From a virus, in IMG/VR virus record IMGVR_UViG_3300017756_000074, positions 1 through 28,472 of that record: a stretch of 28,472 nucleotides of DNA; one strand, given 5' to 3'. Position 1 is the stretch's first letter; each line of letters starts with the position of its first letter. Of the stretch, positions 7,820 through 28,112 are shown in pieces. The position numbers and the translations under genes are program-made. The notes below the pieces were generated by a model, which was given only the letters and a program-made list of their open reading frames with translations, had not been told where the DNA came from and made no database searches.

Positions 7820-8426
7820 TATATTTAGTTTCAATTACTTCTATATCGTAGTTTGCTAGTATTCTATTTTGCTCTAAGCTCTCTTGTTTATATTTATCTT
7901 CCATAGTTCTATATGTTTTCAATAAATAAGGGTGATAACCATATATACCTAAATGCCTATCACCATAACCTATATCGGATCTCGTAAACCACATTGCTTT
8001 ACCTGATTGATGTATAACTTTAACATCGTCAGCTTTAGCACCTTTAGTATAAGCTGTTAAACACAGTGGAGGTTCTGATGTACCTAATATTCTTTTCTTA
8101 ATAGGTTTCATAGTCTCGTGGTTTATATCTATCATGTCTCCTTGTATGTTTAGTATATAATCATAACTACCTACTAAATCTAACACAGCACGTTTAGATA
8201 ACCTATGTGTACCATTTTCAGCTGGGCCTGTTTGTATACACCATTTAATTGGTATATGCTTTGCAATACGTTTACTATCTGTTGCAACAAACGTATCAAA
8301 ACCCATCATACGTACTTTGTCAAACACAATACGTATCAGAGGTTCATCTTCAAACTTCATCAACATCTTGTGTTTGATTCTAGTACTATTAAGTCTTGCT
8401 GGTATTACTACAGCTATGTTTCTCAT
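7770..8426 (-). CDS. kdsB: CMP-Kdo synthetase-like cytidylyltransferase (KdsB)
   Basis: Activates Kdo with CTP. 218 aa, somewhat shorter than cellular enzymes (about 250). Motifs: IPARLNSTRIKHKML at 9-23 (nucleotide-binding loop), ENGTHRLSK, LNIQGDMID (cellular consensus VNVQGDEP), HLGIYGYHPYLLK, and QESLEQNRIL, followed by GIEINTEADI at the C-terminus. The loop motif and the HLGIYGY motif are specific enough to separate it from other cytidylyltransferases. Start overlaps the cupin gene by ATGA. Supplies the CMP-sugar for the family 29-like transferase downstream. Confidence 0.88.
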   Translation of the reverse strand: MRNIAVVIPARLNSTRIKHKMLMKFEDEPLIRIVFDKVRMMGFDTFVATDSKRIAKHIPIKWCIQTGPAENGTHRLSKRAVLDLVGSYDYILNIQGDMIDINHETMKPIKKRILGTSEPPLCLTAYTKGAKADDVKVIHQSGKAMWFTRSDIGYGDRHLGIYGYHPYLLKTYRTMEDKYKQESLEQNRILANYDIEVIETKYNGIEINTEADINSWKL

Positions 8427-9543: not shown

Positions 9544-9685
9544 AGGGAAACCATTTATTTAATAATTCTTTTCTTCTTTCACAACCACAAGGTATATTAT
9601 ACTTTCTTGATAAAGTCATTATCAACCAGTGTATACCTGTAGCTTTAGTAAACCTTTCAAATGTATCGCCAAAACCTTTATCCAT
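9527..9685 (-). CDS. 52-aa conserved-type small phage protein (CGCERRKELLN motif)
   Basis: ATG at 9685 overlaps the 3' end of nrdA (stop of nrdA lies inside its first codons) and runs to a TGA overlapping the oxygenase start. Product begins MDKGFGDTFERFTKATGIHW and ends with CGCERRKELLNKWFPYG. The GDT(F/V)E-x-FTKATGI and CGC-x-x-RK-x-LN-x-x-FPY blocks are a pattern I recall from short proteins in many phages, so this is likely a real gene. Two closely spaced Cys suggest metal binding; function unknown. Confidence 0.7.
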   Translation of the reverse strand: MDKGFGDTFERFTKATGIHWLIMTLSRKYNIPCGCERRKELLNKWFPYGNNK

Positions 9686-11399: not shown

Positions 11400-11656
11400 T
11401 ATATATTTCTAATTAAATGATTTATCCATGCAACTAGCCCGTTAATATTTAACGCGACTAAGTTCCATTGTTTTCTCGCTGTAACTTGACATAACACACA
11501 GCAAAAGCCAGCTATGTATAAAGCAGGTTCCACAGTCCATTGTGCTGCCACTAAAAACCCAGCACCCATGTAACCTATTCTACTAGCTAACTTTTCCCAA
11601 GCTGTCTGTCTTTTGTTTTTTACTAAGTATTTTAATACTTTATATTTCCAACCCAT
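11399..11656 (-). CDS. Small membrane protein between nrdB and nrdA
   Basis: 85 aa. Charged N-terminus (KVLKYLVKNKRQTAWEK), then hydrophobic segments at about residues 27-60 (GYMGAGFLVAAQWTVEPALYIAGFCCVL) and a final NLVALNINGLVAWINHLI stretch. The QVTARKQWNLVALN(I)NG-x-x-AW block looks conserved-type and faintly recalls small transporters such as PnuC, but is too short to be one. One-base overlaps (TAATG) on both sides bind it to nrdB and nrdA, so it is translated with the reductase subunits. Function unknown; a link to nucleotide supply is inferred only from place. Confidence 0.65.
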   Translation of the reverse strand: MGWKYKVLKYLVKNKRQTAWEKLASRIGYMGAGFLVAAQWTVEPALYIAGFCCVLCQVTARKQWNLVALNINGLVAWINHLIRNI

Positions 11657-12624
11657 TACCAGATGTCTTCGAAGTCTTCGCCTTCATTTGCTTTGCTGTA
11701 ATCGGTCGGCCTAATAGCAAAAAAGTCAGTATGGGTATGACCACCAGTAAGATGATAAAACCAATCCAAGTTTTTCGCTGCTTCTTTATCGTACTTAAAT
11801 TCTTTTGAGAGCTTTTTGTAACCAAGCTCAACAAGTTTTTCATTTAGTCTCTTTTTTATAAACTGTTTAAGATCGTAAGATTTCAACCCTTCAATATCCC
11901 CTGCCTCAAACATCTTATCTATGTATTTCATTTCAGCATCATGCATTACATGTGCTGCTTCTACTATGTGTGGTTGGCAAGTCTTTGCAAGAAAGTCTTT
12001 TTCTTCACACATATGTCTAAATAATTGACAACCCATTTTACTATGTAATGATTCGTCTCTTACAGACCATTTCATTTGTTGTCCAACTCCTTTAAGTAAA
12101 TTACGTAGCTGAAAGCTATAAAGTACTGCAAAAGCAGAGTATAAAGAAACTCCTTCTGCGAAAGCACTAAAAATAGCCAATGATCTACCAATTTCAACAG
12201 GGTCGGTGCCACTATATGAAACGAGATTATCAAAACGCTCAGCCGTAGCTGGCTCATGTAAAAACGCTTCAAAGTCTTCAAGTCCAAGTGTTTCATTTAA
12301 ATAACTATATGCTACAGCATGTATTGTCTCTTGACTTCCGAACATCATGGCCATCTGCTGTATTTCGTGTTTAGGAAACCATGATACTACTTTCTGTGTC
12401 CAGTAATCACTTACTGCACATTCAGTCTGAGCAAAGCCTAATAAGATATTTCCTACTAGGTTTTTCTCTGCGTCTGTTAACTTCTCGTTCCAGTCTTTTA
12501 CATCACCCGACATAGGGATCTCTGTATGTAACCAAAATGCTTGAGCTTGTTTCAACCAACCCTCAGTATAATACTCAGGGTACTCAAAAGGTTTATATGC
12601 TACTCTATTATCAAATAATCCCAT
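11656..12624 (-). CDS. nrdB: Class I ribonucleotide reductase beta subunit
   Basis: 322-aa ferritin-like radical-generating subunit. Metal ligands read from motif: E68 (FAQTECAVSDYW), E99 and H102 (SQETIHAVAY), E157 (FSAFAEG), E191 and H194 (RDESLHSKM). Tyr106 lies seven residues after E99, the place of the radical tyrosine of the E. coli type, so a Tyr radical is possible. The first ligand is Glu where E. coli has Asp. The acidic C-terminal tail (NEGEDFEDIW) would dock into NrdA. Its stop overlaps the next start as TAATG. Confidence 0.92.
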   Translation of the reverse strand: MGLFDNRVAYKPFEYPEYYTEGWLKQAQAFWLHTEIPMSGDVKDWNEKLTDAEKNLVGNILLGFAQTECAVSDYWTQKVVSWFPKHEIQQMAMMFGSQETIHAVAYSYLNETLGLEDFEAFLHEPATAERFDNLVSYSGTDPVEIGRSLAIFSAFAEGVSLYSAFAVLYSFQLRNLLKGVGQQMKWSVRDESLHSKMGCQLFRHMCEEKDFLAKTCQPHIVEAAHVMHDAEMKYIDKMFEAGDIEGLKSYDLKQFIKKRLNEKLVELGYKKLSKEFKYDKEAAKNLDWFYHLTGGHTHTDFFAIRPTDYSKANEGEDFEDIW

Positions 12625-13343: not shown

Positions 13344-13590
13344 GTACTTTCATTTGTTTAAGCATTGATTCTTCTATCTCGTCTTGCAAACATCTTTTTG
13401 CAGCTTCGATATATAATAACGCATCCATTATTTCTTCTTGTACATCAGTTAAAAACATATGCAGATCTTTCTCGCCTGTTTGTATCTCGTTATACATTGT
13501 TGAGCCGTATTTCTTTTGGCCAACTAAGCTACGATCGTCCATCTTCCTTAGTACAGCTTGTACTATCTTGTCTTTGGTTTTAATCTGCAT
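13324..13590 (-). CDS. Small MazG-superfamily-like alpha-helical protein
   Basis: The ATG at 13590 is preferred over a TTG three codons upstream. 88 aa, all-helical by composition. The block VQEEIMDALLYIEAAKRCLQDEIE has the E-E-x-x-x-D spacing of the metal-binding helix in all-alpha NTP pyrophosphohydrolases (MazG/dUTPase superfamily), and GQKKYGSTMYNEI lies ahead of it. It is too short to hold both halves of a full MazG domain and may act as a dimer. It overlaps the MazG fusion gene by 11 bp, so two related proteins lie next to each other. Confidence 0.6.
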   Translation of the reverse strand: MQIKTKDKIVQAVLRKMDDRSLVGQKKYGSTMYNEIQTGEKDLHMFLTDVQEEIMDALLYIEAAKRCLQDEIEESMLKQMKVHEEKEL

Positions 13591-14371
13591 CTTTAACAAA
13601 TGTTCCGTTAACCATTTTACCCGTACGTTTAGATATTACGTTGTATGCTTCTGCTATACACGTTTCTATGTTTACGTTGTTTAAATGTGCTAGGTTAGTT
13701 AATACTACAACCATATCGCCAATAGCATCTATAACTTCTGGCTGATCATTTTCTAGTGTAGCTTTTGCTAGCTCACCCATTTCCTCTTGTAGTTTGATTA
13801 ATTGCGTTTTAGGATCACCTTTATCATATAATCCTCTTTCGCTTGCCCATTGTCTAATGTTCTCAAACATTTTTAATGGTTTCTTGGAGCATTTTACTGG
13901 AGTTGGTTGCGCGAATATGTCATTGTTATCGTAAAACCTTGCAAATGCTTTATTGTATATATAACTTCTTTCTGTGTTAAACATAGAAGTTTTAACGTTT
14001 TTCATTATCCAGTCTATTGTTCTAGGTGTAATATTTAATTCACCGTGTTCAGTCTGCCATTTCATACCTAAGTTATCAAACAGCTGACCTTTCAACTTGT
14101 CTACTGGACATGGAAACGTTGTGGTCTGTTCGGTTATATTTATATTCATTTTAGTTTTTGGTTTAAGTTTTTTGTATGGTACCATATCTACTTTGTAGCC
14201 ATACTCTTTTTGTAATTTTATCTCTTTAGACGATATATAATCTACATCTTCAGAGCTTTCTAGTACTTCATACTCGTTAGGTTCATAACCTTGTTGAACT
14301 GTGACCCGGTTATTAAGATCACAGGTAACACCGATCTTTTTACCTGGAATATGATAAATATAATAAGTCAT
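13580..14371 (-). CDS. GIY-YIG-like domain fused to a MazG-like pyrophosphohydrolase
   Basis: 263 aa in two parts. Residues about 1-75 (MTYYIYHIPGKKIGVTCDLNNRV...QQGYEPNEYEVL) match the start of a GIY-YIG nuclease-like fold: YYIYHI strand, KIGVT-x-DL-x-x-RV helix start. Residues about 165-260 are MazG-like: LIKLQEEMGELAKATLE followed by VIDAIGDMVVVLTNLA, giving the EExxE and DxxxD metal sites that hydrolyse non-canonical or excess NTPs. The middle has no recognised domain. GIY-YIG activity is uncertain because the full catalytic Arg/Glu set is not clear. Overlaps its neighbours at both ends (4 bp upstream, 11 bp downstream). Confidence 0.75.
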   Translation of the reverse strand: MTYYIYHIPGKKIGVTCDLNNRVTVQQGYEPNEYEVLESSEDVDYISSKEIKLQKEYGYKVDMVPYKKLKPKTKMNINITEQTTTFPCPVDKLKGQLFDNLGMKWQTEHGELNITPRTIDWIMKNVKTSMFNTERSYIYNKAFARFYDNNDIFAQPTPVKCSKKPLKMFENIRQWASERGLYDKGDPKTQLIKLQEEMGELAKATLENDQPEVIDAIGDMVVVLTNLAHLNNVNIETCIAEAYNVISKRTGKMVNGTFVKDAD

Positions 14372-15009
14372 AATTTATCGTTGTATATATGCATGTTATG
14401 TGCGTGATGGTAATACCACCCGAGGTCTATAGACAATCTCTCTGCGACATATTTTTGTAATGATGAGAATTGATACTGATCATTGCAAAAGCCGTACCAG
14501 AGATCATTAGATCGCATGTAAACAGACATATTAAGTTTATCATTAAGTATTGTAAATTGAACAGCATACGTACAAGGAGTATCAAACTCATATGTACCGT
14601 GTTCTTTACAATCATATATACTAATTGCAGCGTGTCTGGTTTCTTTATTATTTTTAAGCTTATTGATTACATAATCTAATTGATGATTACGTTGCCATTG
14701 CCAACCATAATTACTTCTAACCATATTGTTTTCATCTGCCATCTTTTCCCATATAGGAGGAACCTTACCATATATTTCACCTAGCTTGTTTATACTAGGA
14801 TCACCAGATAAGTACCATTGCCATTCAGCTTCAGCGTAATCAGGTTTCCAATTACGTTCTTTGTTTGTTATATAATTCTCTGTTGGATTTTCCATATAAA
14901 AACCACAGTTGAATATAGCTTTTGTATTATCAAAATCTACACCTGTTTCTCGTATGTGATCCCACAAATAATTATAAGCATGATTAGCGTTATAAAATTT
15001 ATTTTCCAT
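14368..15009 (-). CDS. Thymidylate synthase-family protein
   Basis: The ATG at 15009 (MENKFYNANHAYNYLWD) is preferred: an upstream ATG would overlap the previous gene by over 70 bp. In the 213-aa product, catalytic Cys146 lies in FDTPCTYAVQF, then RSNDLWYGFCNDQYQFSSLQ (N176 at the place of the Asn that selects dUMP) and HNMHIYNDKL (H207, Y209) at the end. Known family members methylate dUMP or hydroxymethylate dCMP/dUMP; the latter often carry Asp at the N176 position, so dUMP use is more likely here. It lacks the canonical LGxPFN wording and is shorter than cellular ThyA (about 264 aa). Neighbours are MazG and primase-helicase genes. Confidence 0.75.
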   Translation of the reverse strand: MENKFYNANHAYNYLWDHIRETGVDFDNTKAIFNCGFYMENPTENYITNKERNWKPDYAEAEWQWYLSGDPSINKLGEIYGKVPPIWEKMADENNMVRSNYGWQWQRNHQLDYVINKLKNNKETRHAAISIYDCKEHGTYEFDTPCTYAVQFTILNDKLNMSVYMRSNDLWYGFCNDQYQFSSLQKYVAERLSIDLGWYYHHAHNMHIYNDKL

Positions 15010-15238
15010 ATTTCTTATAATAATATAATTGATACTCTGATACTTTTTCCCATATTGTATTTGGTCCATAAGAATCAGACGTACCTAATAGTTTACGATT
15101 AGGGTATTTACCTTTTTCAATATCTACAACCCATATTCTTTCGCCATACTTTACAGCTCTTGGAGTTATACATATATCGTTGTTTATACACCATATCGCT
15201 GCGGCATCTTCTTCGGTGGTTCGAGTGTAAACACCCAT
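14999..15238 (-). CDS. 79-aa conserved-type phage protein (GVYTRTTEEDAAAIWCINNDI)
   Basis: The start at 15238 (MGVYTRTT) leaves a short gap to the helicase stop; an ATG 36 bases upstream would overlap the helicase end by 26 bp and is less likely. The protein reads GVYTRTTEEDAAAIWCINNDICITPRAVKYGERIWVVDIEKG. I recall similar short phage proteins with IW-C-x-NDI-x-ITPR and W-x-VDIE blocks. No catalytic signature. It overlaps the thymidylate synthase-like start by 11 bp. Confidence 0.6.
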   Translation of the reverse strand: MGVYTRTTEEDAAAIWCINNDICITPRAVKYGERIWVVDIEKGKYPNRKLLGTSDSYGPNTIWEKVSEYQLYYYKKYGK

Positions 15239-18737: not shown

Positions 18738-18763
18738 TTAATTTGATTTAGTCTATATATATA

Positions 18764-18785
18764 ATTACACATTAGTGAAACGTAT
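18764..18785 (-). promoter_or_regulatory. T7-like phage promoter, variant copy, upstream of ERF/exonuclease genes
   Basis: Read on the minus strand: AAATACG, TTTCACTAA, then a G-containing start (TGTGTAAT). It keeps the ATACG core and contains TCACTA, which the T7 promoter also has, with the same 8-9 base spacing to the first G. The GGATAAT block found in the other copies is degenerate here. It precedes the ERF start by about 30 bases. Confidence 0.5.
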
Positions 18786-18808
18786 TTAAATTTATTGTTC
18801 ACCATAAC

Positions 18809-19576
18809 CTAAAGATAATCAAGCACTTGCGAGTGATCTACATTATCAATAAGCTTTTTAACAGCTTGTTTCTTGAGTTGTGAAACTCTTACATAAGAGC
18901 TACTGCCTTGCATATTTAATTTAGCTGCAATTTCTTTAGCACTATGCTTATCGCTGTTCAAACCGTAACTTAATGTTAATACATTATATTCTTTCTCATC
19001 TAAATACTTTCTTAATAAACTATCTAAATAAGCATTTAACATTTCTAAGTTGTACGGTTCAGATTTATCAGGTATTTGATAGATCATATCTTCATCTTGT
19101 TTTGGCTTTTCGTCTATGCTTAAGAATATAGAATTAAAAAACATTTCAACCATCTTTTTATCTTTACCAAAGTTCCTACGTATCTCATTTAGTTTATGCT
19201 CAGGTATTCTCATGTCTCCACGATTAATATCTACAGCTCTACGTATGTGACCTCGTATTCTTTTTGATAAGAAAGATTTTAATGTTTTTTCTTGATCTTC
19301 TGATTCTTTTAAAACCATATAGTCTAATCTATCAACTGCTTTAACTAAGCCAGAATTACCTTCCTGTATAAGGTCTTGTATATCCATTACACCACTTGCT
19401 TGTTGTGATGTTGAGAATTTTCTAGCTAAATTTTCTACCAAAGGAGTAAATCCTATTATCATCTGTTCTCTATTCCAGATAGTAAAGTCTCCATCTTTTA
19501 CCTTAGGTAGTTTATAAATTTTATATTCAATGTCTTTTTTCCACCGAATATAATTTTGTACATTATAACTTTTCAT
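18809..19576 (-). CDS. Sigma-70-family-like factor encoded by the phage
   Basis: 255 aa. Region 2-like core: FTPLVENLARKF, then DLIQEGNSGLVKAVDRLDY (the 2.1-2.2 hallmark that binds the RNA polymerase coiled coil). Region 4-like HTH: YNVLTLSYGLNSDKHSAKEIAAKLNMQGSSSYVRVSQLKKQAVKKL. Regions 1.1 and a full 3 are missing or short. It could direct the host RNA polymerase to particular phage promoters; the T7-like sites nearby are not of the sigma-70 type, so the phage may use two transcription systems. Overlaps the upstream HTH gene by 14 bp. Confidence 0.8.
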   Translation of the reverse strand: MKSYNVQNYIRWKKDIEYKIYKLPKVKDGDFTIWNREQMIIGFTPLVENLARKFSTSQQASGVMDIQDLIQEGNSGLVKAVDRLDYMVLKESEDQEKTLKSFLSKRIRGHIRRAVDINRGDMRIPEHKLNEIRRNFGKDKKMVEMFFNSIFLSIDEKPKQDEDMIYQIPDKSEPYNLEMLNAYLDSLLRKYLDEKEYNVLTLSYGLNSDKHSAKEIAAKLNMQGSSSYVRVSQLKKQAVKKLIDNVDHSQVLDYL

Positions 19577-20189
19577 TTAATATTTGTTTTTCTCGTTTTA
19601 AATCATCACTCATGTGGCGATGCACTGTTCTTGTAGAGCAACTTAAAAGCTTGGCTATTTTACTAATAGTAATTTTTCCGTCTACCTCAACCATAGCATC
19701 GTATATATCATACTTGTCTATGCTTGGTCTACCTATTAGTTGACCTACGATTTTTAATTTCCCACTCAGGTCTAAACCAGAGTAAGGTTTGAATACTACT
19801 TTACGTAGCTTGTTTGCAGGTGGATCACCACCTTGGTTAAATACATCTTCTATCATATCATTTAATATTTTCTGTTTTATGAAGAAGGTTACAAAACCAT
19901 TATCTTTATTTGCTATAAATTTAAATACAGAACGCATATCATCTTCTAATGATATTTCATCACCTTCAACTCCATCTATATTTAAATAATATAATACAAG
20001 CATGTGCCACTTTAATGATTTATATGTAGTTATCTTAGCCTTGCTGTTAAACAAGTGATAACATTCATATGTACCATCGGCGTAGTATTTATACTGCTCG
20101 GTTTCAATAGTAGGTACATCGGTAATAGGATCTCTCCTATATACGATGCGTCTATTATTTAACCATTTTAAATTTCTGTCTTGTGACAT
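19563..20189 (-). CDS. HTH-containing DNA-binding protein paired with the sigma factor
   Basis: 208 aa. The first 150 residues have no recognised family. Residues about 165-200 (DAMVEVDGKITISKIAKLLSCSTRTVHRHMSDDLKREKQILNEKL) form a clear helix-turn-helix: ISKIAKLL turn then CSTRTVHRHM recognition helix. It lies directly before the sigma-like gene with a 14-bp overlap, so co-translation is likely. It may regulate phage promoters or act with the sigma factor; anti-sigma function is possible but not shown. Confidence 0.7.
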   Translation of the reverse strand: MSQDRNLKWLNNRRIVYRRDPITDVPTIETEQYKYYADGTYECYHLFNSKAKITTYKSLKWHMLVLYYLNIDGVEGDEISLEDDMRSVFKFIANKDNGFVTFFIKQKILNDMIEDVFNQGGDPPANKLRKVVFKPYSGLDLSGKLKIVGQLIGRPSIDKYDIYDAMVEVDGKITISKIAKLLSCSTRTVHRHMSDDLKREKQILNEKL

Positions 20190-22020: not shown

Positions 22021-22310
22021 AGGTTATTTAATTTATTTTGTATTTGATCTAGTTTTCTTTTTATAATTGCTGCCTTCATGTATTCTTCATTACCTTCGTA
22101 CAAACTCATTAATGTATGTAGTCTAGCCATTTCAGATACTAAGAACTCTTCTTCTGTTTCTTTAAAGGGCAATTGTCCTTTTATCAATTCACCTATAGTC
22201 ATAGGAGTATTGTATTGATGCCAGTTTGGGCTTTGAGCTTTTTGTATTAGTTTATCTAATACTTTTTCAGCTAGCTCATCTATTATTTTTTCGTTGTTTA
22301 TGAAACCCAT
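22017..22310 (-). CDS. 97-aa protein with UvrB/UvrC-motif-like helix pair
   Basis: The frame is open to an ATG at 22325, but that ATG straddles the start point of a phage promoter (core 22317-22337), so an RNA made from it lacks that codon; the ATG at 22310 (MGFINNEKIIDELAE) is the first available and gives a 13-nt leader. C-terminal helices EEFLVSEMARLHTLMSLYEGNEEYMKAAIIKRKLDQIQNKL resemble the small UvrB/C interaction motif (helix hairpin). Rest unrecognised. Stop overlaps the ligase start by ATGA. Confidence 0.65.
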   Translation of the reverse strand: MGFINNEKIIDELAEKVLDKLIQKAQSPNWHQYNTPMTIGELIKGQLPFKETEEEFLVSEMARLHTLMSLYEGNEEYMKAAIIKRKLDQIQNKLNNL

Positions 22311-22316
22311 ATCGTT

Positions 22317-22337
22317 ATTATCCATTTACTTTCGTAT
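22317..22337 (-). promoter_or_regulatory. T7-like phage promoter before the UVR-like/ligase operon
   Basis: Minus strand: ATACGA, eight bases (AAGTAAAT), GGATAAT. The first base upstream of ATACGA is the last base of the stop codon of the gene before it, so promoter and gene are packed without spare DNA. RNA start is expected at one of the two G residues. Confidence 0.75.
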
Positions 22338-22808
22338 TTAGTCTGTATTAAAATTTGCATATACTTTTTCAAATCTTGTTTTACCATTAGCAAAATCAGT
22401 GTAGTCCATATCTTTCATGTACTTAGATATAATCTTTTCTGGTTTTAATACAAACACACATCTACTACTGTATTGATCGTAGCAACTAATCCATATGTCA
22501 TCAGAATCACCTGTCCATATAATATAAGTATATTGGTGATCGATATTTTGATGGTCTGCGTATAAGTAGCAACTGTCATAGTAATGATCATGAACTAGCT
22601 TTGCAGCTAATGCGCTACCGTCTTGTCTAGCATTAGTGTGACACCAGTTTGCTAACTGTACACCTTGCCATTCAGGGTAACCATCATGATGTAAATACAT
22701 ATTTACATAGCTATTGTCAGCGTAAACTGAAGGGTTAGCAGCAAAACCTAAATCGTTTTGGCTTGCGTAGTCTCTATCTACTACCATAGTTAAATTTCTT
22801 GTACTCAT
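22338..22808 (-). CDS. 156-aa phage protein (MSTRNLTMVV...MYLHHDGYPE)
   Basis: N-terminus MSTRNLTMVVDRDYASQND and the NMYLHHDGYPEWQGVQLANW block are a pattern I recall from small proteins in several phages (STR... Y-x-HHDGYPE). Rest is Tyr/Asp-rich (YYDSCYLYADHQNIDHQYTYIIWTGDSDDIWISCY). No catalytic motif; the two His and Asp in HHDGYP could bind a metal. Its ATG overlaps the stop of the 48-aa gene upstream (ATGA). Confidence 0.65.
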   Translation of the reverse strand: MSTRNLTMVVDRDYASQNDLGFAANPSVYADNSYVNMYLHHDGYPEWQGVQLANWCHTNARQDGSALAAKLVHDHYYDSCYLYADHQNIDHQYTYIIWTGDSDDIWISCYDQYSSRCVFVLKPEKIISKYMKDMDYTDFANGKTRFEKVYANFNTD

Positions 22809-22951
22809 TTTATTCCGCCTTTATTTATTGTTAAACGTATTTCTCTGATATAATCATGGAACTTACTCCACTTGTCAGACTCTTCTTCAAAGTATGAATG
22901 TTCGATTCTTCGTTTTATTTCTTTTTCTATAAGAGATAACAAAGTCACCAT
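22805..22951 (-). CDS. 48-aa helical small protein
   Basis: ATG at 22951 to TGA overlapping the next gene. MVTLLSLIEKEIKRRIEHSYFEEESDKWSKFHDYIREIRLTINKGGIK: amphipathic, high Glu/Lys/Arg. It fills a 150-bp gap between two convincing genes with the usual 4-bp overlap on one side and a 7-bp gap on the other, so it is likely translated. Unknown function. Confidence 0.6.
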   Translation of the reverse strand: MVTLLSLIEKEIKRRIEHSYFEEESDKWSKFHDYIREIRLTINKGGIK

Positions 22952-22958
22952 TACATCT

Positions 22959-23273
22959 TTACACATCATCTCTTTCTCTGAATAATGCGAAGCCTAGCTT
23001 TGCGTAATTTATTATATCGCCAAACCTACTAATCATAGGTTCTGCCTTGTTTAGATCATGGTTGCTAACGTGAGCTGCAACTGAGCTAATTTGCTTATCG
23101 AAGTAAGCATACCACACAACTAGAGGATCTACATTTAGCTTTTTAGCCGTAGATTTAAAGTTGTTAAGTACATCATTATCCTGCATAGTATATTCAGGAC
23201 CTTTCTTGTTCATTGTTTCTTGCGCGTAATGATCTAACTCATGTACTAACGCGTTAAATTGTTCTGTCGTCAT
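22959..23273 (-). CDS. Small all-helical phage protein, DUF1599-like
   Basis: 104 aa. KKGPEYTMQDNDVLNNFKSTAKKLNVDPLVVWYAYFDKQISSV then MISRFGDIINYAKLGFALFRERDDV. The layout (KxxEY...DVLxNF...VWYAYFxKQ...RxxDIINYxxL) resembles the helical DUF1599-type phage domain, in which acidic and His residues may bind nucleotide or metal. Homology is suggested only by pattern; function unknown. Confidence 0.6.
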   Translation of the reverse strand: MTTEQFNALVHELDHYAQETMNKKGPEYTMQDNDVLNNFKSTAKKLNVDPLVVWYAYFDKQISSVAAHVSNHDLNKAEPMISRFGDIINYAKLGFALFRERDDV

Positions 23274-23274
23274 A

Positions 23275-23556
23275 TTAGTCTAGTAATGTCATATAAGCTG
23301 AAGCATTGTTGGTTCTAAACCAGTCTAAGCCTCTTCTCATATCGTTCTGTAAATTAATTGTATCAGGGTGCATTATATCATCGCTAAATTGTGTAGCTAT
23401 TGTAAACTCTGCACCTTTAATAAAGTCATACATACTTAGCTCAGCACCTGTTAACTTGCATTTGTCACCTGTAAAAGGGTTAGCTACTGTATCACCTTCG
23501 TTATACCACATACCGTGGAACCATTTAGGTTTTTCTTGTTTATTTTTTGTCTTCAT
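23275..23556 (-). CDS. 93-aa phage protein (KPKWFHGMWYNEGDTV)
   Basis: MKTKNKQEKPKWFHGMWYNEGDTVANPFTGDKCKLTGAELSMYDFI, then DWFRTNNASAYMTLLD. The NPFTG-x-x-C-x-L-x-GxELSMYDFI block and the ending WFR-x-NN-x-x-AYMTLLD form a pattern I recall from short marine phage proteins. Single domain, no catalytic sites seen. One base from the gene below, 17-bp overlap with the acidic gene above. Confidence 0.6.
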   Translation of the reverse strand: MKTKNKQEKPKWFHGMWYNEGDTVANPFTGDKCKLTGAELSMYDFIKGAEFTIATQFSDDIMHPDTINLQNDMRRGLDWFRTNNASAYMTLLD

Positions 23557-23998
23557 AGTAATCGCCTGAGTCTAATAACTCATCTTTTAATTCGTTAAAC
23601 TTTTCTTCGTATATGTCTTGCCACCATTGTTCAAGCTCATGGTTAAATTCGTATTCCATATCGTCCCATATATGAGACTCTACCCACACATCTTGACCAT
23701 CAGTCAATGCTTCAATAGCTTGTTCTGACCATGTAGTATAATCTTCATACTGATAACCATCTTGTGAAATATAAGGTTTCTCATCATAAGTACACCAGTA
23801 TATATCGTAGCCATCAGCTGTTGATTCACTGTATACTTTTAGGTTGTGTGATTTATCTGACCATGTAGTTTCAGTATCTAGTTTACCACCATATTCTGTA
23901 GTTATATATTCTAATAGCCAAGGTGCATCTGGTTCTTCCATGATACCATCTGCTTGTAGCTTATCGTTGACAATATCGTCTGTTAGTAATTCTGCCAT
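23540..23998 (-). CDS. Strongly acidic 152-aa protein, possible DNA mimic
   Basis: About 42 Asp/Glu against 9 Lys and no Arg in 152 residues; also rich in Trp and Tyr (WSDKSHNLKVY, YQYEDYTTWSEQ, MEYEFNHELEQWWQDIYEE). Such composition is typical of DNA-mimic inhibitors (for example the T7 Ocr idea) and of some calcium-dependent or chaperone-like proteins, but no family is recognised. Its stop overlaps the gene below by 17 bp; start is one base from the preceding stop. Confidence 0.6.
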   Translation of the reverse strand: MAELLTDDIVNDKLQADGIMEEPDAPWLLEYITTEYGGKLDTETTWSDKSHNLKVYSESTADGYDIYWCTYDEKPYISQDGYQYEDYTTWSEQAIEALTDGQDVWVESHIWDDMEYEFNHELEQWWQDIYEEKFNELKDELLDSGDYYEDKK

Positions 23999-24234
23999 TA
24001 TTTATTAATTATATTATCGCCATACATAAAGTCATAAGGTGACATTTTGTAACTGCTTAGATTAGAATACGTTATTAGTTCTGATAAGTCTCTCATTGTA
24101 AGCTCTGACCAAGTCATCTTAGACATAAGAGTATACTTAAGTAATTTAGCGCTGTCGTATTTTCTAGCACTAGCTTGCAACTCAGTTTTAACATTGGGTT
24201 TTAGCAAGTCGTAAATTGATTTTAGTTTATTCAT
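23998..24234 (-). CDS. 78-aa small unknown protein
   Basis: MNKLKSIYDLLKPNVKTELQASARKYDSAKLLKYTLMSKMTWSELTMRDLSELITYSNLSSYKMSPYDFMYGDNIINK. Basic, helical. It is the first gene after a phage promoter whose G start lies about 30 bases upstream and uses the AT-rich leader (AATAATAACAATG) typical here. No family recognised. Confidence 0.6.
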   Translation of the reverse strand: MNKLKSIYDLLKPNVKTELQASARKYDSAKLLKYTLMSKMTWSELTMRDLSELITYSNLSSYKMSPYDFMYGDNIINK

Positions 24235-24258
24235 TGTTATTATTTATTATTTAATTAT

Positions 24259-24279
24259 ATTATCCAACTGTTGTCGTAT
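24259..24279 (-). promoter_or_regulatory. T7-like phage promoter before the acidic/small-gene operon
   Basis: Minus strand: ACAATATAAATACGA, eight bases, GGATAAT; ATACGA-N8-GGATAAT is exact. It lies just after the 3' end of the tRNA-like/structured RNA region, so it restarts transcription after that RNA. Confidence 0.75.
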
Positions 24280-24287
24280 TTATATTG

Positions 24288-24365
24288 TGGAAGTGGGCGG
24301 AATCGAACCGCCGTTTGCTAGACGACCATATATTTATGGGTATTAGCACTAACCTTATCACTCCC
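24288..24365 (-). tRNA. tRNA-like element, anticodon unresolved
   Basis: 78 nt. Acceptor stem GGGAGTG pairs with CACTTCC (one G-T), discriminator A; a perfect T-arm GGCGG-TTCGATT-CCGCC. A D-arm-like hairpin (GGTTA GTGC TAAT ACC) follows the acceptor. The middle does not give a 5-bp stem with a 7-nt anticodon loop, and the region before the T-arm is about five bases longer than normal. The GGTCGTCTAGC stretch itself looks like the D-arm of another tRNA. So this is either a decayed or recombinant tRNA or a tRNA-like end of a larger RNA. CCA is not encoded. Confidence 0.35.
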
Positions 24366-24627
24366 AAATCCCTCACTTGTTTTCAACTCAAACGTTACTG
24401 AGTATTCCCGTGAGGGAGACAGAGATAGAAGTTTGGGACTGGTAGTTTCTAGAATTGTCGTTTATACCCAACTTTCTGTTTTGACGCACCACGATCGAGC
24501 TAATGCCCCGGTAATCGCCTAACGTGACCAGTATGCCGCCACTCTGTCTTATTTCAACCGAAGTTAATCGGATTTACTGCGACTTACTACCTGCTTTGTA
24601 CCACATGGGTGCATCGCTGCGCATATA
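24288..24627 (-). ncRNA. Structured non-coding RNA region, contains a tRNA-like 3' end
   Basis: No coding frame in 340 bp, and GC is visibly higher than in the flanks. Complementary pairs on the minus-strand RNA: 24542-24549 with 24417-24424 (8 bp), 24527-24532 with 24438-24443 (6 bp, nested), 24432-24438 with 24362-24368 (7 bp, crossing the first pair), 24410-24417 with 24369-24376 (8 bp), a UUCG-capped hairpin (24554-24558 with 24563-24567) and a stacked hairpin at 24579-24617. The crossing pair gives a pseudoknot order like that of group I introns, RNase P or tmRNA, but the conserved sequences of those RNAs are not present, and a tmRNA tag or intron exons could not be found. A candidate new or very diverged RNA. 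Confidence 0.5.
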
Positions 24628-24774
24628 TTATTTTGTTTTATTATAGATCTCTAATGCTTTTTCAATATCTTGAATATCATAATCTATTAATATTTTATAA
24701 GCTTTTTTAACATTACTTACTATTGCTTTATTTTCTTCTTGCATCTCGTGCCATTTTTTTATTGAATCACTCAT
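24628..24774 (-). CDS. 48-aa charged helical small protein
   Basis: ATG overlaps the stop of the gene upstream by eight bases; the TAA lies at the start of the structured RNA region. MSDSIKKWHEMQEENKAIVSNVKKAYKILIDYDIQDIEKALEIYNKTK, two amphipathic helices. Likely translated because of the tight junction; no family. Confidence 0.6.
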   Translation of the reverse strand: MSDSIKKWHEMQEENKAIVSNVKKAYKILIDYDIQDIEKALEIYNKTK

Positions 24775-24985
24775 CGTAGTATTTATTAGTTGTTACATCT
24801 AGTTTATTAGCTATGTGACGGCCGACCAGTCTCATGAGATAACTATGAGCTTCGTTTATTGTATTGCCCTCACTGGTTTCTGGTAAGAACTGGCCGATCT
24901 GCCAATCACATTGCTTGTAAATTTCATCTATTATATCTGTAGCTATTTCTTGTGCTACTACATCCATTTGTTTTATCTTTGCCAT
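24767..24985 (-). CDS. 72-aa small unknown protein
   Basis: MAKIKQMDVVAQEIATDIIDEIYKQCDWQIGQFLPETSEGNTINEAHSYLMRLVGRHIANKLDVTTNKYYDE. Mixed helix and loop, one His pair, no known motif. Four bases after the zinc-ribbon gene's stop, so part of the same operon. Confidence 0.6.
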   Translation of the reverse strand: MAKIKQMDVVAQEIATDIIDEIYKQCDWQIGQFLPETSEGNTINEAHSYLMRLVGRHIANKLDVTTNKYYDE

Positions 24986-24989
24986 ATTA

Positions 24990-25202
24990 TTATCTTAAGC
25001 ATGTTCCGTAACCTCGTCTAGCGCCAAGCTTTCTTACACGTTTCGCCTGACTTTTTGGCATGATTTGAATAGTATTGCCGGTTTTATGGTATGTGATTGC
25101 CACACAGCCATATGGTTCAGTGGTCGAACAGTCGACGCAAGAGGTATAACCTAGTGCGAGGCGCTGCGGAGGTATTATATTTTTACATTTACATTTTGTC
25201 AT
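24990..25202 (-). CDS. Small zinc-ribbon-like protein (TraR/DksA-type zinc-finger family look)
   Basis: 70 aa: MTKCKCKNIIPPQRLALGYTSCVDCSTTEPYGCV then YHKTGNTIQIM. Four Cys in the first half (CKC and CVDC, about 18 residues apart) form a zinc site, and the PPQRLALGY-x-x-C-x-x-CS phrase resembles phage DksA/TraR-like zinc-finger proteins. Its ATG is only about 13 nt from the expected RNA start of the promoter upstream (core 25210-25230), giving a very short leader. Confidence 0.7.
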   Translation of the reverse strand: MTKCKCKNIIPPQRLALGYTSCVDCSTTEPYGCVAITYHKTGNTIQIMPKSQAKRVRKLGARRGYGTCLR

Positions 25203-25209
25203 CGTATAT

Positions 25210-25230
25210 ATTATCCGAATTACTTCGTAT
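25210..25230 (-). promoter_or_regulatory. T7-like phage promoter before the zinc-ribbon gene
   Basis: Minus strand: ACAATACAAATACGA, eight bases, GGATAAT, exact. It lies inside the last codons of the gene upstream, where it encodes the RNYNTNTK ending, so the promoter is embedded in coding DNA. Confidence 0.75.
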
Positions 25231-25627
25231 TTGTATTGTAATTTCTAAGATAGTATTCTAACATATAATTCATTCTTGCAAGCTGAGACCATATTAAAGC
25301 TCTCGCTGTGCCTACATATTCGTTAGTTTTTAAACCATTTTCAGTTAAGAAAGTAGTTCTTCTGTTCTGCTTGTATTGTTTGTTTAGTTGATATGGTGAG
25401 TAAGTACCGTTCTGTTTTCTTACTGTACCACTTTTAAAGCAAGCTAATCTAAGATTACCGTTGTAGTATCTTGGGTGTGATGGAACAGGAAATTCAAATT
25501 CTCTTGTACCATTTAACGCTTGTCTTTGCGTAGTTACTTCTTTAATATTATACTTAAGGAGCAATTGTCTTGCAAAAGCATTTTCTAACGCTTCTTGTTC
25601 TTGTTGCCAAGTTTGTTTATTTCTCAT
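25220..25627 (-). CDS. 135-aa basic unknown protein
   Basis: MRNKQTWQQEQEALENAFARQLLLKYNIKEVTTQRQALNGTREFEFPVPSHPRYYNGNLRLACFK... ends LEYYLRNYNTNTK. Basic, with R/Q/N-rich stretches; no family. Its end codons hold a promoter, and the same RNYNxNTK ending recurs in the gene at 26151-26276, a consequence of the shared promoter sequence. Confidence 0.6.
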   Translation of the reverse strand: MRNKQTWQQEQEALENAFARQLLLKYNIKEVTTQRQALNGTREFEFPVPSHPRYYNGNLRLACFKSGTVRKQNGTYSPYQLNKQYKQNRRTTFLTENGLKTNEYVGTARALIWSQLARMNYMLEYYLRNYNTNTK

Positions 25628-25647
25628 AGTTATTTAATTTAATTTAG

Positions 25648-25722
25648 TTGCGGAAGGTGGATTCGAACCACCGACCTCAAGGTTATGAGCCTTGCGAGCT
25701 GACCAGACTGCTCTATTCCGCC
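25648..25722 (-). tRNA. tRNA-Met(CAT), initiator-like
   Basis: 75 nt, foldable cloverleaf. Acceptor GGCGGAA/TTCCGCA with an unpaired G1-A72 ending (a 1-72 mismatch is the hallmark of bacterial initiator tRNA), D-arm GAGC-AGTCTGGTCA-GCTC which matches initiator-type D-arms, anticodon stem CAAGG/CCTTG with loop CTCATAA, T-arm GGTGG-TTCGAAT-CCACC, discriminator A, no encoded CCA. The full three G-C pairs of the initiator anticodon stem are not present (two are), so it is initiator-like but not exact. The gene upstream ends inside its first ten bases. Confidence 0.85.
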
Positions 25723-25955
25723 GTATATTCTTTGCGCCATGACATATCATCGCCATGTGGTGCATATTTATTCCAGTGATCTACTACTTTGTTAGTCCAA
25801 CCACCATATTCTTTGTCAACTGCTTCATTAATTAGCTCTAGTTGTCGTCTACCTGACTCGTAAGATCTATTGTCATCACTCATACAGTAAGTAAAGTCAT
25901 GTTGCTTGATCATTTCGAAAGCAGGTAAGTCGTCGTAGTATATTTTTTTATGCAT
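25713..25955 (-). CDS. 80-aa unknown protein ending inside the tRNA gene
   Basis: MHKKIYYDDLPAFEMIKQHDFTYCMSDDNRSYESGRRQLELINEAVDKEYGGWTNKVVDHWNKYAPHGDDMSWRKEYTAE. Mixed acidic/basic, no family. The TAG stop lies within the first ten bases of the initiator-like tRNA, so this mRNA end and the tRNA 5' end are shared and RNase P cutting would trim the message. Confidence 0.6.
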   Translation of the reverse strand: MHKKIYYDDLPAFEMIKQHDFTYCMSDDNRSYESGRRQLELINEAVDKEYGGWTNKVVDHWNKYAPHGDDMSWRKEYTAE

Positions 25956-26133
25956 AAGTTCTATTATTTATTATTGTAAAAGCAGGGTAACTTCTGTATT
26001 TTTTGTCCGCACTGTCATAATATCTAGTGTTTGGAGCAAATTCTAGCACTTCGATGTCACCATTAGCATATTTTAGTATAGCGTTTTGTGGTTGGCCGAG
26101 TTGATTGTAGTTTGTTAATTTTAGTTTATTCAT
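25948..26133 (-). CDS. 61-aa small unknown protein
   Basis: MNKLKLTNYNQLGQPQNAILKYANGDIEVLEFAPNTRYYDSADKKYRSYPAFTIINNRTYA. Beta-rich composition, basic. First gene after a phage promoter (core 26150-26170) with an AT-rich leader of about 22 nt. Stop overlaps the next start by eight bases. No family. Confidence 0.6.
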   Translation of the reverse strand: MNKLKLTNYNQLGQPQNAILKYANGDIEVLEFAPNTRYYDSADKKYRSYPAFTIINNRTYA

Positions 26134-26149
26134 ATCATTTATTTGTATT

Positions 26150-26170
26150 ATTATCCAAATATCTTCGTAT
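26150..26170 (-). promoter_or_regulatory. T7-like phage promoter before the 61-aa gene
   Basis: Minus strand: ACAATTTAAATACGA, eight bases, GGATAAT, exact. It is embedded in the 3' end of the small gene upstream, whose last codons (TTT GGA TAA) run through the GGATAA block, so the promoter and stop codon coincide. Confidence 0.75.
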
Positions 26171-26276
26171 TTAAATTGTAATTTCTATTAAATTTATCAT
26201 ACCATTCATCTTCTACTAGCATTATTTCTTGTCTAGTTAGCTTAATTATCTTCTTACTCTTGTATTTTCTAGGCAT
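26151..26276 (-). CDS. 41-aa basic micro-protein
   Basis: MPRKYKSKKIIKLTRQEIMLVEDEWYDKFNRNYNLNTKIFG, ATG to TAA. Overlaps the gene upstream by eight bases. The end RNYNLNTKIFG is encoded by the promoter sequence. Basic N-terminus then acidic helix; no family. Below common gene-caller length, but the junctions match its neighbours. Confidence 0.5.
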   Translation of the reverse strand: MPRKYKSKKIIKLTRQEIMLVEDEWYDKFNRNYNLNTKIFG

Positions 26277-26397
26277 AGTAGTAATCAGTATATTCTTCAA
26301 CAGTTACATATTTTTCTAACTCGTTAGAGTATATCATACCATCTATTACATGCTCGTCATTAAATGACCACACTTTTTCGTGTTTAAATTTTCTCAT
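26269..26397 (-). CDS. 42-aa micro-protein
   Basis: MRKFKHEKVWSFNDEHVIDGMIYSNELEKYVTVEEYTDYYYA. Compact beta-like, no known motif. Starts with a 4-bp ATGA overlap with the gene upstream and overlaps the next by 8 bp, so it belongs to the same polycistronic small-gene run. Confidence 0.5.
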   Translation of the reverse strand: MRKFKHEKVWSFNDEHVIDGMIYSNELEKYVTVEEYTDYYYA

Positions 26398-26531
26398 AGT
26401 TTATTAGTTGATTTATAGAACTCTATTCTGTCAAGAACATCTTGTCTAGTTATTTTCTTTTCCATTTGTAATAGTATATCGCTTGACATATCTATTTCTT
26501 TACCGTTTTCACACGTCAATATCCACTGCAT
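26394..26531 (-). CDS. 45-aa micro-protein
   Basis: MQWILTCENGKEIDMSSDILLQMEKKITRQDVLDRIEFYKSTNKL. Short N-terminal strand then helix; no family. Two bases separate its start from the TM gene's stop. The four-base ATGA overlap with the following gene supports translation. Confidence 0.5.
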   Translation of the reverse strand: MQWILTCENGKEIDMSSDILLQMEKKITRQDVLDRIEFYKSTNKL

Positions 26532-26533
26532 AA

Positions 26534-26701
26534 TTATATAGTTACGCCGTTAAACAGTATTTGATACCACATGAATACTATTCCTGTTATCGCTAGTGGC
26601 ATTAAGAAACCGAAAGCGATGCCTTCAAATATTAAGTCAATAACTGACTTACCTTTTACATAGTTGTACACTTTATTGTACGTGAATTTAATTTTACTCA
26701 T
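26534..26701 (-). CDS. 55-aa single-TM membrane micro-protein
   Basis: MSKIKFTYNKVYNYVKGKSVIDLIFEGIAFGFLMPLAITGIVFMWYQILFNGVTI. Basic N-terminus (likely cytoplasmic) then a hydrophobic segment of about 28 residues. Could be a holin-type or host-membrane modifier; no family. In the small-gene run. Confidence 0.55.
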   Translation of the reverse strand: MSKIKFTYNKVYNYVKGKSVIDLIFEGIAFGFLMPLAITGIVFMWYQILFNGVTI

Positions 26702-26716
26702 AGTTATTATATTTAT

Positions 26717-26836
26717 TTAGTTATATTCGTTATATATTGCTAGAACTTCTTTTTGTTCTGCTTTAGTTAGTTGAAAAACATTCTTGTTAGGAAATAGTTT
26801 TCGTGAAATCATTATTAGTTGAGTTTGATTGTACAT
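26717..26836 (-). CDS. 39-aa micro-protein
   Basis: MYNQTQLIMISRKLFPNKNVFQLTKAEQKEVLAIYNEYN. Small basic helical peptide. Overlaps the next upstream frame by 50 bp, so at most one of the two ends may be as drawn. Weakly supported. Confidence 0.35.
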   Translation of the reverse strand: MYNQTQLIMISRKLFPNKNVFQLTKAEQKEVLAIYNEYN

Positions 26837-26927
26837 TATTATTATATTTATTAGTTAGTTTACCTTCTTCTGTGAAGTGACCGTACAGAATACCATTTAC
26901 TCTGTACTCGTTAGTTATTTTATTCAT
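26787..26927 (-). CDS. 46-aa micro-protein
   Basis: MNKITNEYRVNGILYGHFTEEGKLTNKYNNNVQSNSTNNDFTKTIS. Beta-like N-terminus, Asn-rich end. Begins just after the tRNA-like element (3 bp). Overlaps the 39-aa frame by 50 bp. No family. Confidence 0.4.
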   Translation of the reverse strand: MNKITNEYRVNGILYGHFTEEGKLTNKYNNNVQSNSTNNDFTKTIS

Positions 26928-26929
26928 AG

Positions 26930-27008
26930 TTGACATGAGTAGATTCGAACTACTTAGTGATACGTACCAATTTGGTCACACCGTTTTACACACTATACCG
27001 TAATGTCA
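26930..27008 (-). tRNA. tRNA-like element, anticodon unresolved
   Basis: 79 nt. Acceptor TGACATT pairs six of seven with CATGTCA, discriminator A, T-arm AGTAG-TTCGAAT-CTACT perfect. The middle folds as a single extended arm (TAGTG with CACTA right next to the T-stem; inside, ACG with CGT and ACC with GGT) instead of separate D and anticodon arms. So no D-arm and no standard anticodon loop. May be a decayed tRNA, a D-armless form or a tRNA-like processing signal. Confidence 0.35.
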
Positions 27009-27031
27009 GTTACTTGCTCAACTTTATTTAT

Positions 27032-27060
27032 ACTCGAGAGAACACAGCTCGACGCCGAGT
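27032..27060 (-). other. Hairpin-forming GC-rich stretch upstream of the tRNA-like element
   Basis: ACTCG (27032-27036) pairs with CGAGT (27056-27060); an alternative stem CTCG (27048-27051) with CGAG (27056-27059) overlaps it. The stretch between the small gene at 27081 and the tRNA-like element has no coding frame. May be a processing hairpin or weak terminator. Confidence 0.3.
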
Positions 27061-27080
27061 GAGATGTAAAGAATTAGTTA

Positions 27081-27308
27081 TTATACTAACTCTTTATCTC
27101 TAAGTACTAATGGAATATTATTAGTAGCAGTGTAGCTTTTGTATTTAGACCAGCAAGCTAAGTTGGTTAGTGTATCTTTCATTATTGAAAATACTTTGTC
27201 GTGATTGTAAGTTATCTTGTCACCTTTTTTGTTAGTGAATTCGAATGTTACATTTTTTCCGATTAGTGATTGTCTTACGACAAATCTTTTAGTAGTTAAG
27301 TTACTCAT
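27081..27308 (-). CDS. 75-aa basic unknown protein
   Basis: MSNLTTKRFVVRQSLIGKNVTFEFTNKKGDKITYNHDKVFSIMKDTLTNLACWSKYKSYTATNNIPLVLRDKELV. Beta-rich N-terminus, one Cys, no motif. First gene after a promoter 48 nt upstream, with an AT-rich leader. Translated in the leftward direction. Confidence 0.55.
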   Translation of the reverse strand: MSNLTTKRFVVRQSLIGKNVTFEFTNKKGDKITYNHDKVFSIMKDTLTNLACWSKYKSYTATNNIPLVLRDKELV

Positions 27309-27351
27309 AGTTTAAAATTTAATTGTTATTATTATTATTATTTAGTTACAT

Positions 27352-27471
27352 TTATATTATCCATATTGAGTCGTATTTACATTGTATAAAAGTATATGTT
27401 TTATTTAGTAAATGTTTTAGTGTTTCTATTATACCACACTCTCTCTCTATTTCTAATTTAGTTTGTTTCAT
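27352..27471 (-). CDS. 39-aa micro-protein carrying a promoter in its 3' end
   Basis: MKQTKLEIERECGIIETLKHLLNKTYTFIQCKYDSIWII. ATG about 18 nt from the expected start of the leftward promoter (core 27483-27503). The last codons (KYDSIWII) are the promoter for the next gene. Two Cys, helical; no family. Confidence 0.45.
   Translation of the reverse strand: MKQTKLEIERECGIIETLKHLLNKTYTFIQCKYDSIWII
27356..27376 (-). promoter_or_regulatory. T7-like phage promoter, closest match to T7
   Basis: Minus strand: AATACGACTCA, identical to T7 over eleven bases, then ATATG and GATAAT; ATACGA-N8-GGATAAT is exact. Embedded in the 3' end of the 39-aa gene. Drives the 75-aa gene through a leader of about 50 nt. 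Confidence 0.8.
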
Positions 27472-27482
27472 ATTACATATAT

Positions 27483-27503
27483 ATTATCCAACTACACTCG
27501 TAT
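27483..27503 (-). promoter_or_regulatory. T7-like phage promoter, leftward copy of the divergent pair
   Basis: Minus strand: TAATACGA, eight bases, GGATAAT, exact. It is the most upstream minus-strand copy in the window, opening the leftward transcription of all the genes down to the Kdo cassette. Confidence 0.75.
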
Positions 27504-27541
27504 TAACTATGTATATATTAATATATAGTTATACAAAGGAT

Positions 27542-27562
27542 ATACGTGGTGAAGCGGATAAT
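27542..27562 (+). promoter_or_regulatory. T7-like phage promoter, rightward copy of the divergent pair
   Basis: Plus strand: ATACGT, eight bases (GGTGAAGC), GGATAAT, same spacing as the minus copies. Begins 38 bp from the leftward copy, making a divergent promoter pair. Drives the genes at 27888 onward after a 330-nt leader. Confidence 0.75.
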
Positions 27563-27583
27563 ATAACTGTACTGCATGGGTGA

Positions 27584-27660
27584 AATGCTATACACCGAGC
27601 GGCCTAGTATAACATGTGAAATATGTAGGCGAAACATAGTTAGTAATAAATGCTATACAC
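27584..27660. repeat. Direct repeat AATGCTATACAC, 65 bp apart
   Basis: Twelve identical bases at 27584-27595 and 27649-27660 within the leader downstream of the rightward promoter. Followed by CGAG in the first and AGATG in the second. Possible protein or RNA binding sites. Confidence 0.4.
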
Positions 27661-27689
27661 AGATGCGCATCGGTATGTATGGGGTATGA
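27585..27689 (+). CDS. Possible 34-aa micro-ORF in the leader
   Basis: ATG to TGA: MLYTERPSITCEICRRNIVSNKCYTQMRIGMYGV. Three cysteines and basic charge; the leader has other possible roles, so translation is unsure. Listed because it starts 30 nt from the expected RNA start of the rightward promoter. Confidence 0.2.
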   Translation: MLYTERPSITCEICRRNIVSNKCYTQMRIGMYGV

Positions 27690-27804
27690 ACGCGGTGATA
27701 TCCGGCAAGGTGGGGCTGGGTAAATATAATTGACTTTCCTTTTATTGTAAAGGTGAAGAGGGGTAGGGGCTACCCTATACCTCAAAATATCTTATATTTT
27801 TTTT

Positions 27805-27855
27805 GTGACAGTAGCTATATAGAGTATACTAGTAATAGGCAAGTGTCACCTTTTT
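27805..27855 (+). terminator. Possible terminator-like hairpin with T run
   Basis: GTGACA (27805-27810) pairs with TGTCAC (27844-27849), followed by C and five T. The loop of 33 nt is large, so a weak attenuator-like role is more likely than a strong terminator. Confidence 0.3.
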
Positions 27856-27887
27856 AAATTTCCACTTAACTATGTGATTATTCCTGT

Positions 27888-28112
27888 ATGGCAATAGCAA
27901 ATTCACAAGGGCTCAGTCCCGCAGCATTAAGAAGAAAGAGAGCAAGGGACAAGGCAGCGGCTATGACGCCTGCTAGACGTAGGAAGAAAGCTGAGAACCA
28001 AAGGATAGGTCAGAGAAGTGATTCTGATTTACACCATACACCAAGTGGAACTGTTCGTAGAACATCTATTGCTTATAACCGAGCAACTCACGATAGAGGT
28101 GAGGTTGCATAA
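27888..28112 (+). CDS. 74-aa very basic phage protein, first rightward gene
   Basis: MAIANSQGLSPAALRRKRARDKAAAMTPARRRKKAENQRIGQRSDSDLHHTPSGTVRRTSIAYNRATHDRGEVA. Arg/Lys-rich helix with ALRRKRARDKAAAMTP-x-RRRKKAENQR, a pattern I recall near terminase or early structural genes of marine phages. Nucleic-acid binding likely; function unknown. Transcribed from the rightward promoter. Confidence 0.65.
   Translation: MAIANSQGLSPAALRRKRARDKAAAMTPARRRKKAENQRIGQRSDSDLHHTPSGTVRRTSIAYNRATHDRGEVA

Follow-up and report, generated by a model that had tools for sequence, protein, structure and literature searches.

Seven copies of a promoter-like element in the window

The DNA analysed here is a stretch of 28,472 nucleotides (positions 1 to 28,472 of the IMG/VR virus record IMGVR_UViG_3300017756_000074), referred to below as the window, and the subject is a short element of the layout ATACG(A/T)-N8-GGATAAT that recurs in its right-hand part. 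A preliminary description of the sequence had listed seven copies and regarded them as T7-like promoters. A pattern search of the window located seven exact copies in the same places, and the reading as phage-specific promoters of fixed layout placed before genes was supported by a motif search over related phages, in which the element was found far beyond chance. The element is called class 1 here. Scores are those of a weight matrix built from the phage clade.

Six copies are on the minus strand. Copy 1 (22310-22348, core ATACGA-N8-GGATAAT at 22317-22337, score 35.0) has its predicted transcription start (+1) at 22310, the A of an ATG, which would be a leaderless arrangement, and heads an operon that begins with a 97-aa gene and a DNA ligase gene and runs on to a helix-turn-helix (HTH) gene and a sigma factor gene. 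Copy 2 (24252-24290, core 24259-24279, predicted +1 at 24252, score 40.2) lies upstream of an open reading frame (ORF) at 23998-24234, and the predicted +1 of copy 3 (25203-25241, core 25210-25230, score 36.6), at 25203, is one base ahead of the ATG of ORF 24990-25202. Copy 4 (26143-26181, core 26150-26170, predicted +1 at 26143, score 34.8) precedes ORF 25948-26133. Copy 5 (27349-27387, core 27356-27376, predicted +1 at 27349, score 42.4) precedes ORF 27081-27308 and is the one that carries the T7-like AATACGACTCA, apparently by chance. The outermost leftward promoter would be copy 6 (27476-27514, core 27483-27503, predicted +1 at 27476, score 34.1), and the ORF that comes after its core is short, about 39 aa. 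Copy 7 (27531-27569, core 27542-27562, score 20.4) is divergent, on the plus strand, and its predicted +1 is the G at 27569. The earlier statement that each copy precedes a gene thus holds for six of the seven; after the plus-strand copy there is no ORF of at least 60 aa for about 325 nt. Five of the seven copies lie within 50 nt of an ORF of at least 60 aa.

When up to two mismatches were allowed, only two further matches appeared, at 19226 and 26245 on the minus strand of the window; neither fitted the clade matrix, with scores of -0.1 for 26245 and below -4 for 19226, compared with 20 to 42 for the real copies and maxima of -9 to +3 for shuffled versions of the window. A dinucleotide shuffle of the window at three mismatches (29 matches observed, 22 expected) was uninformative. 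The supposed weaker copy at 18764 scored -31 and is a different element, not a member of the family. The stretch that follows the divergent copy, 27563-27888 on the plus strand, is non-coding, and a GC-rich GGTGGGGCCCGG-like sequence is retained at this place in relatives; it had no Rfam match and is perhaps a small RNA.

Conservation of the element in related phages

Ligase homologues were used to collect 74 IMG/VR loci, some of whose records may represent incomplete genomes, and the exact pattern was searched in 50 of those records. About 100 exact copies were found in 33 of the 50 records, and none with the reversed pattern. A logo of 111 distinct exact copies revealed a TACAA block about 10 bp upstream of ATACGA, which the preliminary description had not mentioned, an N8 under almost no constraint, and conservation continuing beyond GGATAAT. 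With a first weight matrix spanning columns -11 to 26, two to nine copies were found in each of 19 out of 19 near-full genomes (reversed controls, 0). A refined matrix applied to the 74 contigs gave 403 sites, 350 of them distinct, on 68 contigs, with one match in the reversed-sequence controls. An ORF of at least 45 aa beginning with ATG was found within 50 nt of 325 of the 403 copies, as against 21% of random positions.

The clade consensus is TACAAAC-N2-AAATACGA-N9-GATAATA. Numbered from the predicted start, the register is T(-37)ACAAAC, then AAATACGA at about -29 to -22, a free spacer (columns 6-13 carry 0.04-0.37 bits in the 350 copies), GATAATA at -12 to -6, a pyrimidine at -1 and a purine at +1. 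As in promoters of the sigma-70 family, there is a -10-type hexamer, GATAAT, in which A-11 is present in 100% and T-7 in 97% of copies, and a second element lies at -35-type spacing, TACAAA beginning 25 bp before GATAAT in fixed register (or CAAACT with a 17-bp spacer). At site 24259, six of the eight spacer bases differ between the window and a near-identical sister genome, a 70,850-bp contig to part of which the window is about 99.4-99.7% identical, and both flanking blocks are identical. The exact pattern is missing from many near-full genomes, in which ATACGA and the first G are variable, frequently with one variant throughout a genome: all copies read CGATAAT in one genome (G042) and TTGATAAT or AAGATAAT in another (G043), with TACAAA and GATAATA retained. 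Seven named phages (phi38:1, phi18:3, phi19:3, Gundel_1, elemoA, phi10:1 and ctfjg026) gave only two-mismatch background matches to the motif.

A purine signature downstream of the element

Column 27, which is 7 nt after GGATAAT and lies outside the matrix that collected the copies, held a purine in 120 of 121 distinct copies (G 54, A 66); the base before it, column 26, was a pyrimidine in 84 of the 121. Such a pyrimidine-purine step resembles a transcription start site. The most frequent position of an ATG was also column 27 (69 of the 403 sites), with a nearer ATG in 16 sites. The purine is not explained by translation, since it was also found in 107 of the 108 copies without an ATG at column 27 (G 54, A 53, T 1). 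The pattern was seen in every genome taken separately; the copies are related, so nominal p-values are too strong. From these positions, the transcription start is predicted to be the purine 7 nt past GATAAT, sometimes the A of an ATG, and starts of the latter kind would yield leaderless mRNAs.

A phage sigma factor gene and its neighbors

The operon that begins at the 22317 promoter ends with a gene (18809-19576, minus strand) to which the preliminary description had made no reference and whose product was identified with Pfam and PHROG as a phage sigma-70-family factor of 255 aa having regions 2, 3.0 ('RIPEH') and 4. Residues 40-242 matched RpoD in a PDB sequence search (E = 4e-6), and an AlphaFold model gave, among the Foldseek matches listed, sigma chains only. 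Region 2 has RIRG, as FliA has at the corresponding place. The gene was present in 19 of 19 near-full genomes carrying the element; five distant named phages devoid of the element lacked the gene. Sigma70_r2 was matched in 30 of 30 clade records and in 0 of the 5 distant phages; in G015 and G016 the match was in a giant ORF instead of a sigma gene. Overlapping the sigma gene, at 19563-20189 on the minus strand, is the gene of a 208-aa protein with a C-terminal HTH (sub-threshold matches to HTH families), a possible co-activator. An association between sigma residues and motif variants was confounded by kinship and was not relied on. Given that each genome has one full sigma gene and two element classes, we infer, rather than observe, which class the factor reads; it probably reads class 1.

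The giant protein is a polyvalent one of 2,886 aa (G001 35231-43891; L084 from 15231 onward), and its C-terminus is encoded at 2-1447 of the window. Internally, at about aa 1190-1290 in G001, it has a segment resembling sigma region 2, which reached 24.3 bits with Pfam in G015, above the cut-off, and 18.1, 16.4 (G001) and 15.0 bits in three others. The segment has no recognizable part for reading a -10 element and is not detectable in every genome that carries the element. The protein is a candidate RNA-polymerase-binding protein, possibly ejected with the DNA.

Comparison with T7 promoters

The preliminary description proposed a single-subunit T7-type RNA polymerase encoded outside the window, with transcripts starting at GG. 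The proposal draws on ATACGA, which stands at a similar distance before GG as in T7 class III promoters, and on the single AATACGACTCA match; a start at GG would also readily explain eight sites, described below, at which an ATG follows GATAAT directly. We nevertheless regard it as hardly tenable. The polymerase family PF00940 was found in 0 of the 50 records, and the same search recognized T7 itself with E = 9.9e-110. Those records include the sister genome, which is essentially closed, because both ends of the 70,850-bp contig match the right end of the window. Polymerase-sized ORFs encoded a terminase, portal, muzzle-like and structural proteins and the giant polyvalent protein, or were orphans, with no polymerase match. 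The sister genome's large unassigned ORFs are missing in most relatives that bear the element; orphans of 849, 746 and 639 aa were rejected as polymerases on this ground and for want of any match, and the giant 2,886-aa ORF as an RNA polymerase had no family or PDB match. Multisubunit beta and beta-prime domains were likewise absent from 19 of the relatives in a domain search.

The element itself also differs from a T7 promoter. The supposed +1, the first G of GG, is G in only 43% of clade copies, and the purine signature is elsewhere, 7 nt after GGATAAT. The positions used in T7 for specificity and melting (-12 to -1) fall in the free spacer, leaving no conserved specificity or TATA region, and the conserved TACAA block lies upstream of -17, beyond the reach of T7 RNA polymerase. 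The identity of copy 5 to the T7 promoter over eleven bases is real, but about 0.25 such matches are expected by chance among the 111 copies from the column frequencies; the likeness arises because one free spacer happens to read CTCA. An 11-base look-alike of this kind can mislead. A hairpin promoter of the type read by the N4 virion polymerase was rejected as well: CGAC-AATA-GTCG is stem-like in some copies, but the bases pair only as often as independent columns predict.

A second element downstream of the sigma operon

The different element at the site of the supposed weaker copy is TGTAATTATA at 18769-18760, in a feature spanning 18740-18806 on the minus strand between the sigma and ERF genes. 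It is readable as an extended -10 (TGT-AATTAT). The general form of this class 2 is TGT(A/G)ATTATA-N-TATA behind an inverted repeat, the arms of which change together in relatives (GTGAAC/GTTCAC, GCGG/CCGC, GGTCA/TGATC). In most relatives TGTAATTATA comes directly behind the sigma gene, and it is also found before some late genes, with the class-2 core before a late ORF at 33234 in G001, 49247 in G014 and 38869 in G005. Class 2 is likely to be a second class of promoter.

Interpretation of the class-1 element

On the sequence evidence, we lean towards the view that the seven sites are sigma-dependent promoters private to one uncultured marine phage clade and read by the phage sigma factor with the host core enzyme. 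The host core RNA polymerase and the sigma factor encoded at 18809-19576 would most likely start transcription, with GATAAT(A) at -12 to -6 serving as -10 element, TACAAA(C) at -37 to -31 as -35-type element and (A)AATACGA, at about -28 to -22, as a third block in the spacer. Since its gene lies at the end of the operon that begins at the 22317 promoter, the factor would be autocatalytic. Several observations weigh against this view. If the sigma factor is required for its own operon, the first copies need another source, and the host element TAHHTTTG was not above expectation near the first promoter. Motif and sigma co-vary weakly (partial Mantel r = 0.24 given ligase), and this co-variation cannot be separated from that of the neighboring HTH protein. 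The layout of phages phiEco32 and 7-11 (PMC4331800) would make class 2, not class 1, the target of the sigma factor. Finally, eight copies at one orthologous position in at least two lineages have an ATG immediately after GATAAT, a codon that would be missing from a transcript begun 7 nt farther on. The gene in question is the one just upstream of ligase, and the arrangement recurs at many loci, for example G031, L011 and L053.

The element may instead be a sigma-type early promoter read by host core RNA polymerase with an alternative sigma factor of the host or with an ejected factor such as the giant protein, leaving class 2 to the phage sigma, which would then drive recombination and late genes in an early-to-late cascade as in phiEco32. 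The positions of the two classes suit this, class 1 lying upstream of and including the sigma operon and class 2 right behind the sigma gene and ahead of some late genes; so do the region-2 matches in the giant protein, which reach their best score in G015, and the precedent of phiEco32 and 7-11 (PMC4331800). However, the lack of a recognizable -10-reading part in the giant-protein segment and its absence from detection in some element-carrying genomes speak against that reader, class 1 is unlike the known primary-sigma promoter of Bacteroidetes, and class 2 is represented by few copies in each genome and gives a weaker signal. We consider this alternative possible but doubtful. That ATACGA (about -27 to -22) is read by a further factor, either the adjacent HTH protein or the ejected giant protein, together with the phage sigma is unlikely; if such a three-block reading were true, the phage would import its own code for early promoters into Bacteroidetes hosts, and with it leaderless early mRNAs. 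An operator or an element of RNA processing or translation placed before early genes would account for the frequent overlap with the end of the preceding gene and for the nearness of start codons. It is very improbable in view of the two blocks at promoter spacing, the conservation of A-11 and T-7, the purine signature independent of ATG, the existence of divergent copies and pairing across N8 that does not rise above the independent-column level.

Relation to known promoters

A phage sigma factor with private promoters has a precedent in phiEco32 and 7-11, whose sigma-factor promoters read TAATGTATA (PMC4331800). These are podovirus-type phages too, with their own sigma factor and an AT-rich private motif in several copies. 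The sequence here is another one, however; the element is long and includes blocks farther upstream, and class-1 copies lie upstream of and within the sigma operon, whereas TGTAATTATA fits the phiEco32 and 7-11 layout better. Promoters of sigma-28 (FliA/SigD), TAAAGTTT-N11-GCCGATAA, have a -10 element GCCGATAA with a GATAA core (PMC2859248). That core is shared in register, and the sigma factors share RIRG in region 2, but there is no GCC before GATAA here, the spacer holds an extra block, and TACAAA stands 19 bp from GATAAT (CAAACT, 17 bp). Of the sigma-28 features, the GCCGATAA -10 and the TAAA -35, only GATAA is common to both.

In Flavobacterium johnsoniae the -7 element extends from -12 to -5, and 4-5 nt separate it from the start (PMC6847099). 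Class 1 resembles such promoters of the Bacteroidetes primary sigma (TTTG / TAHHTTTG) in having an element at -12 to -5, A-11, T-7, an AT-rich context and, for class 1 by prediction, a start 12 nt past the first base of the element. It differs in having G-12, A-8, A-6 and A/T-5 in place of T-12, T-8, T-6 and G-5, and the clade copies carry an invariant GATAATAW instead of the TAHHTTTG -7 element. In the open-access literature no earlier description was found of the GGATAAT motif or of phage-sigma promoters in Bacteroidetes; as far as searched, that literature describes neither the sequence nor the third spacer block nor the clade.

Phage relationships and other features of the window

The phage groups with uncultured relatives of Cellulophaga phages phi38:1 (Pervagoviridae) and phi18:3 (Pachyviridae) and of elemoviruses, and among named records Podoviridae sp. 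ctfjg026 is nearest (terminase, 62.5%). The clade's distant relatives infect Flavobacteriia, hosts with an unusual promoter language in which few phage promoters have been described. For this abundant uncultured marine clade the analysis yields a putative promoter code with predicted start sites, along with a sigma factor that is a candidate for reading it.

Immediately upstream of copy 2, a tRNA-like or tmRNA-like (transfer-messenger RNA) end at 24285-24365 on the minus strand closes a 350-nt non-coding stretch reaching to about 24640; the Rfam tmRNA match (38.6 bits, E = 5.7e-14) is below the gathering score of 47. A tRNA-Met (CAT) gene is located within the early cluster at 25647-25722, also on the minus strand. 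Farther to the left, the minus-strand regions 7055-7834, 9678-12624 and 13580-15069 encode a DAHP synthase-like protein, a class I ribonucleotide reductase, a MazG-like protein and thymidylate synthase.

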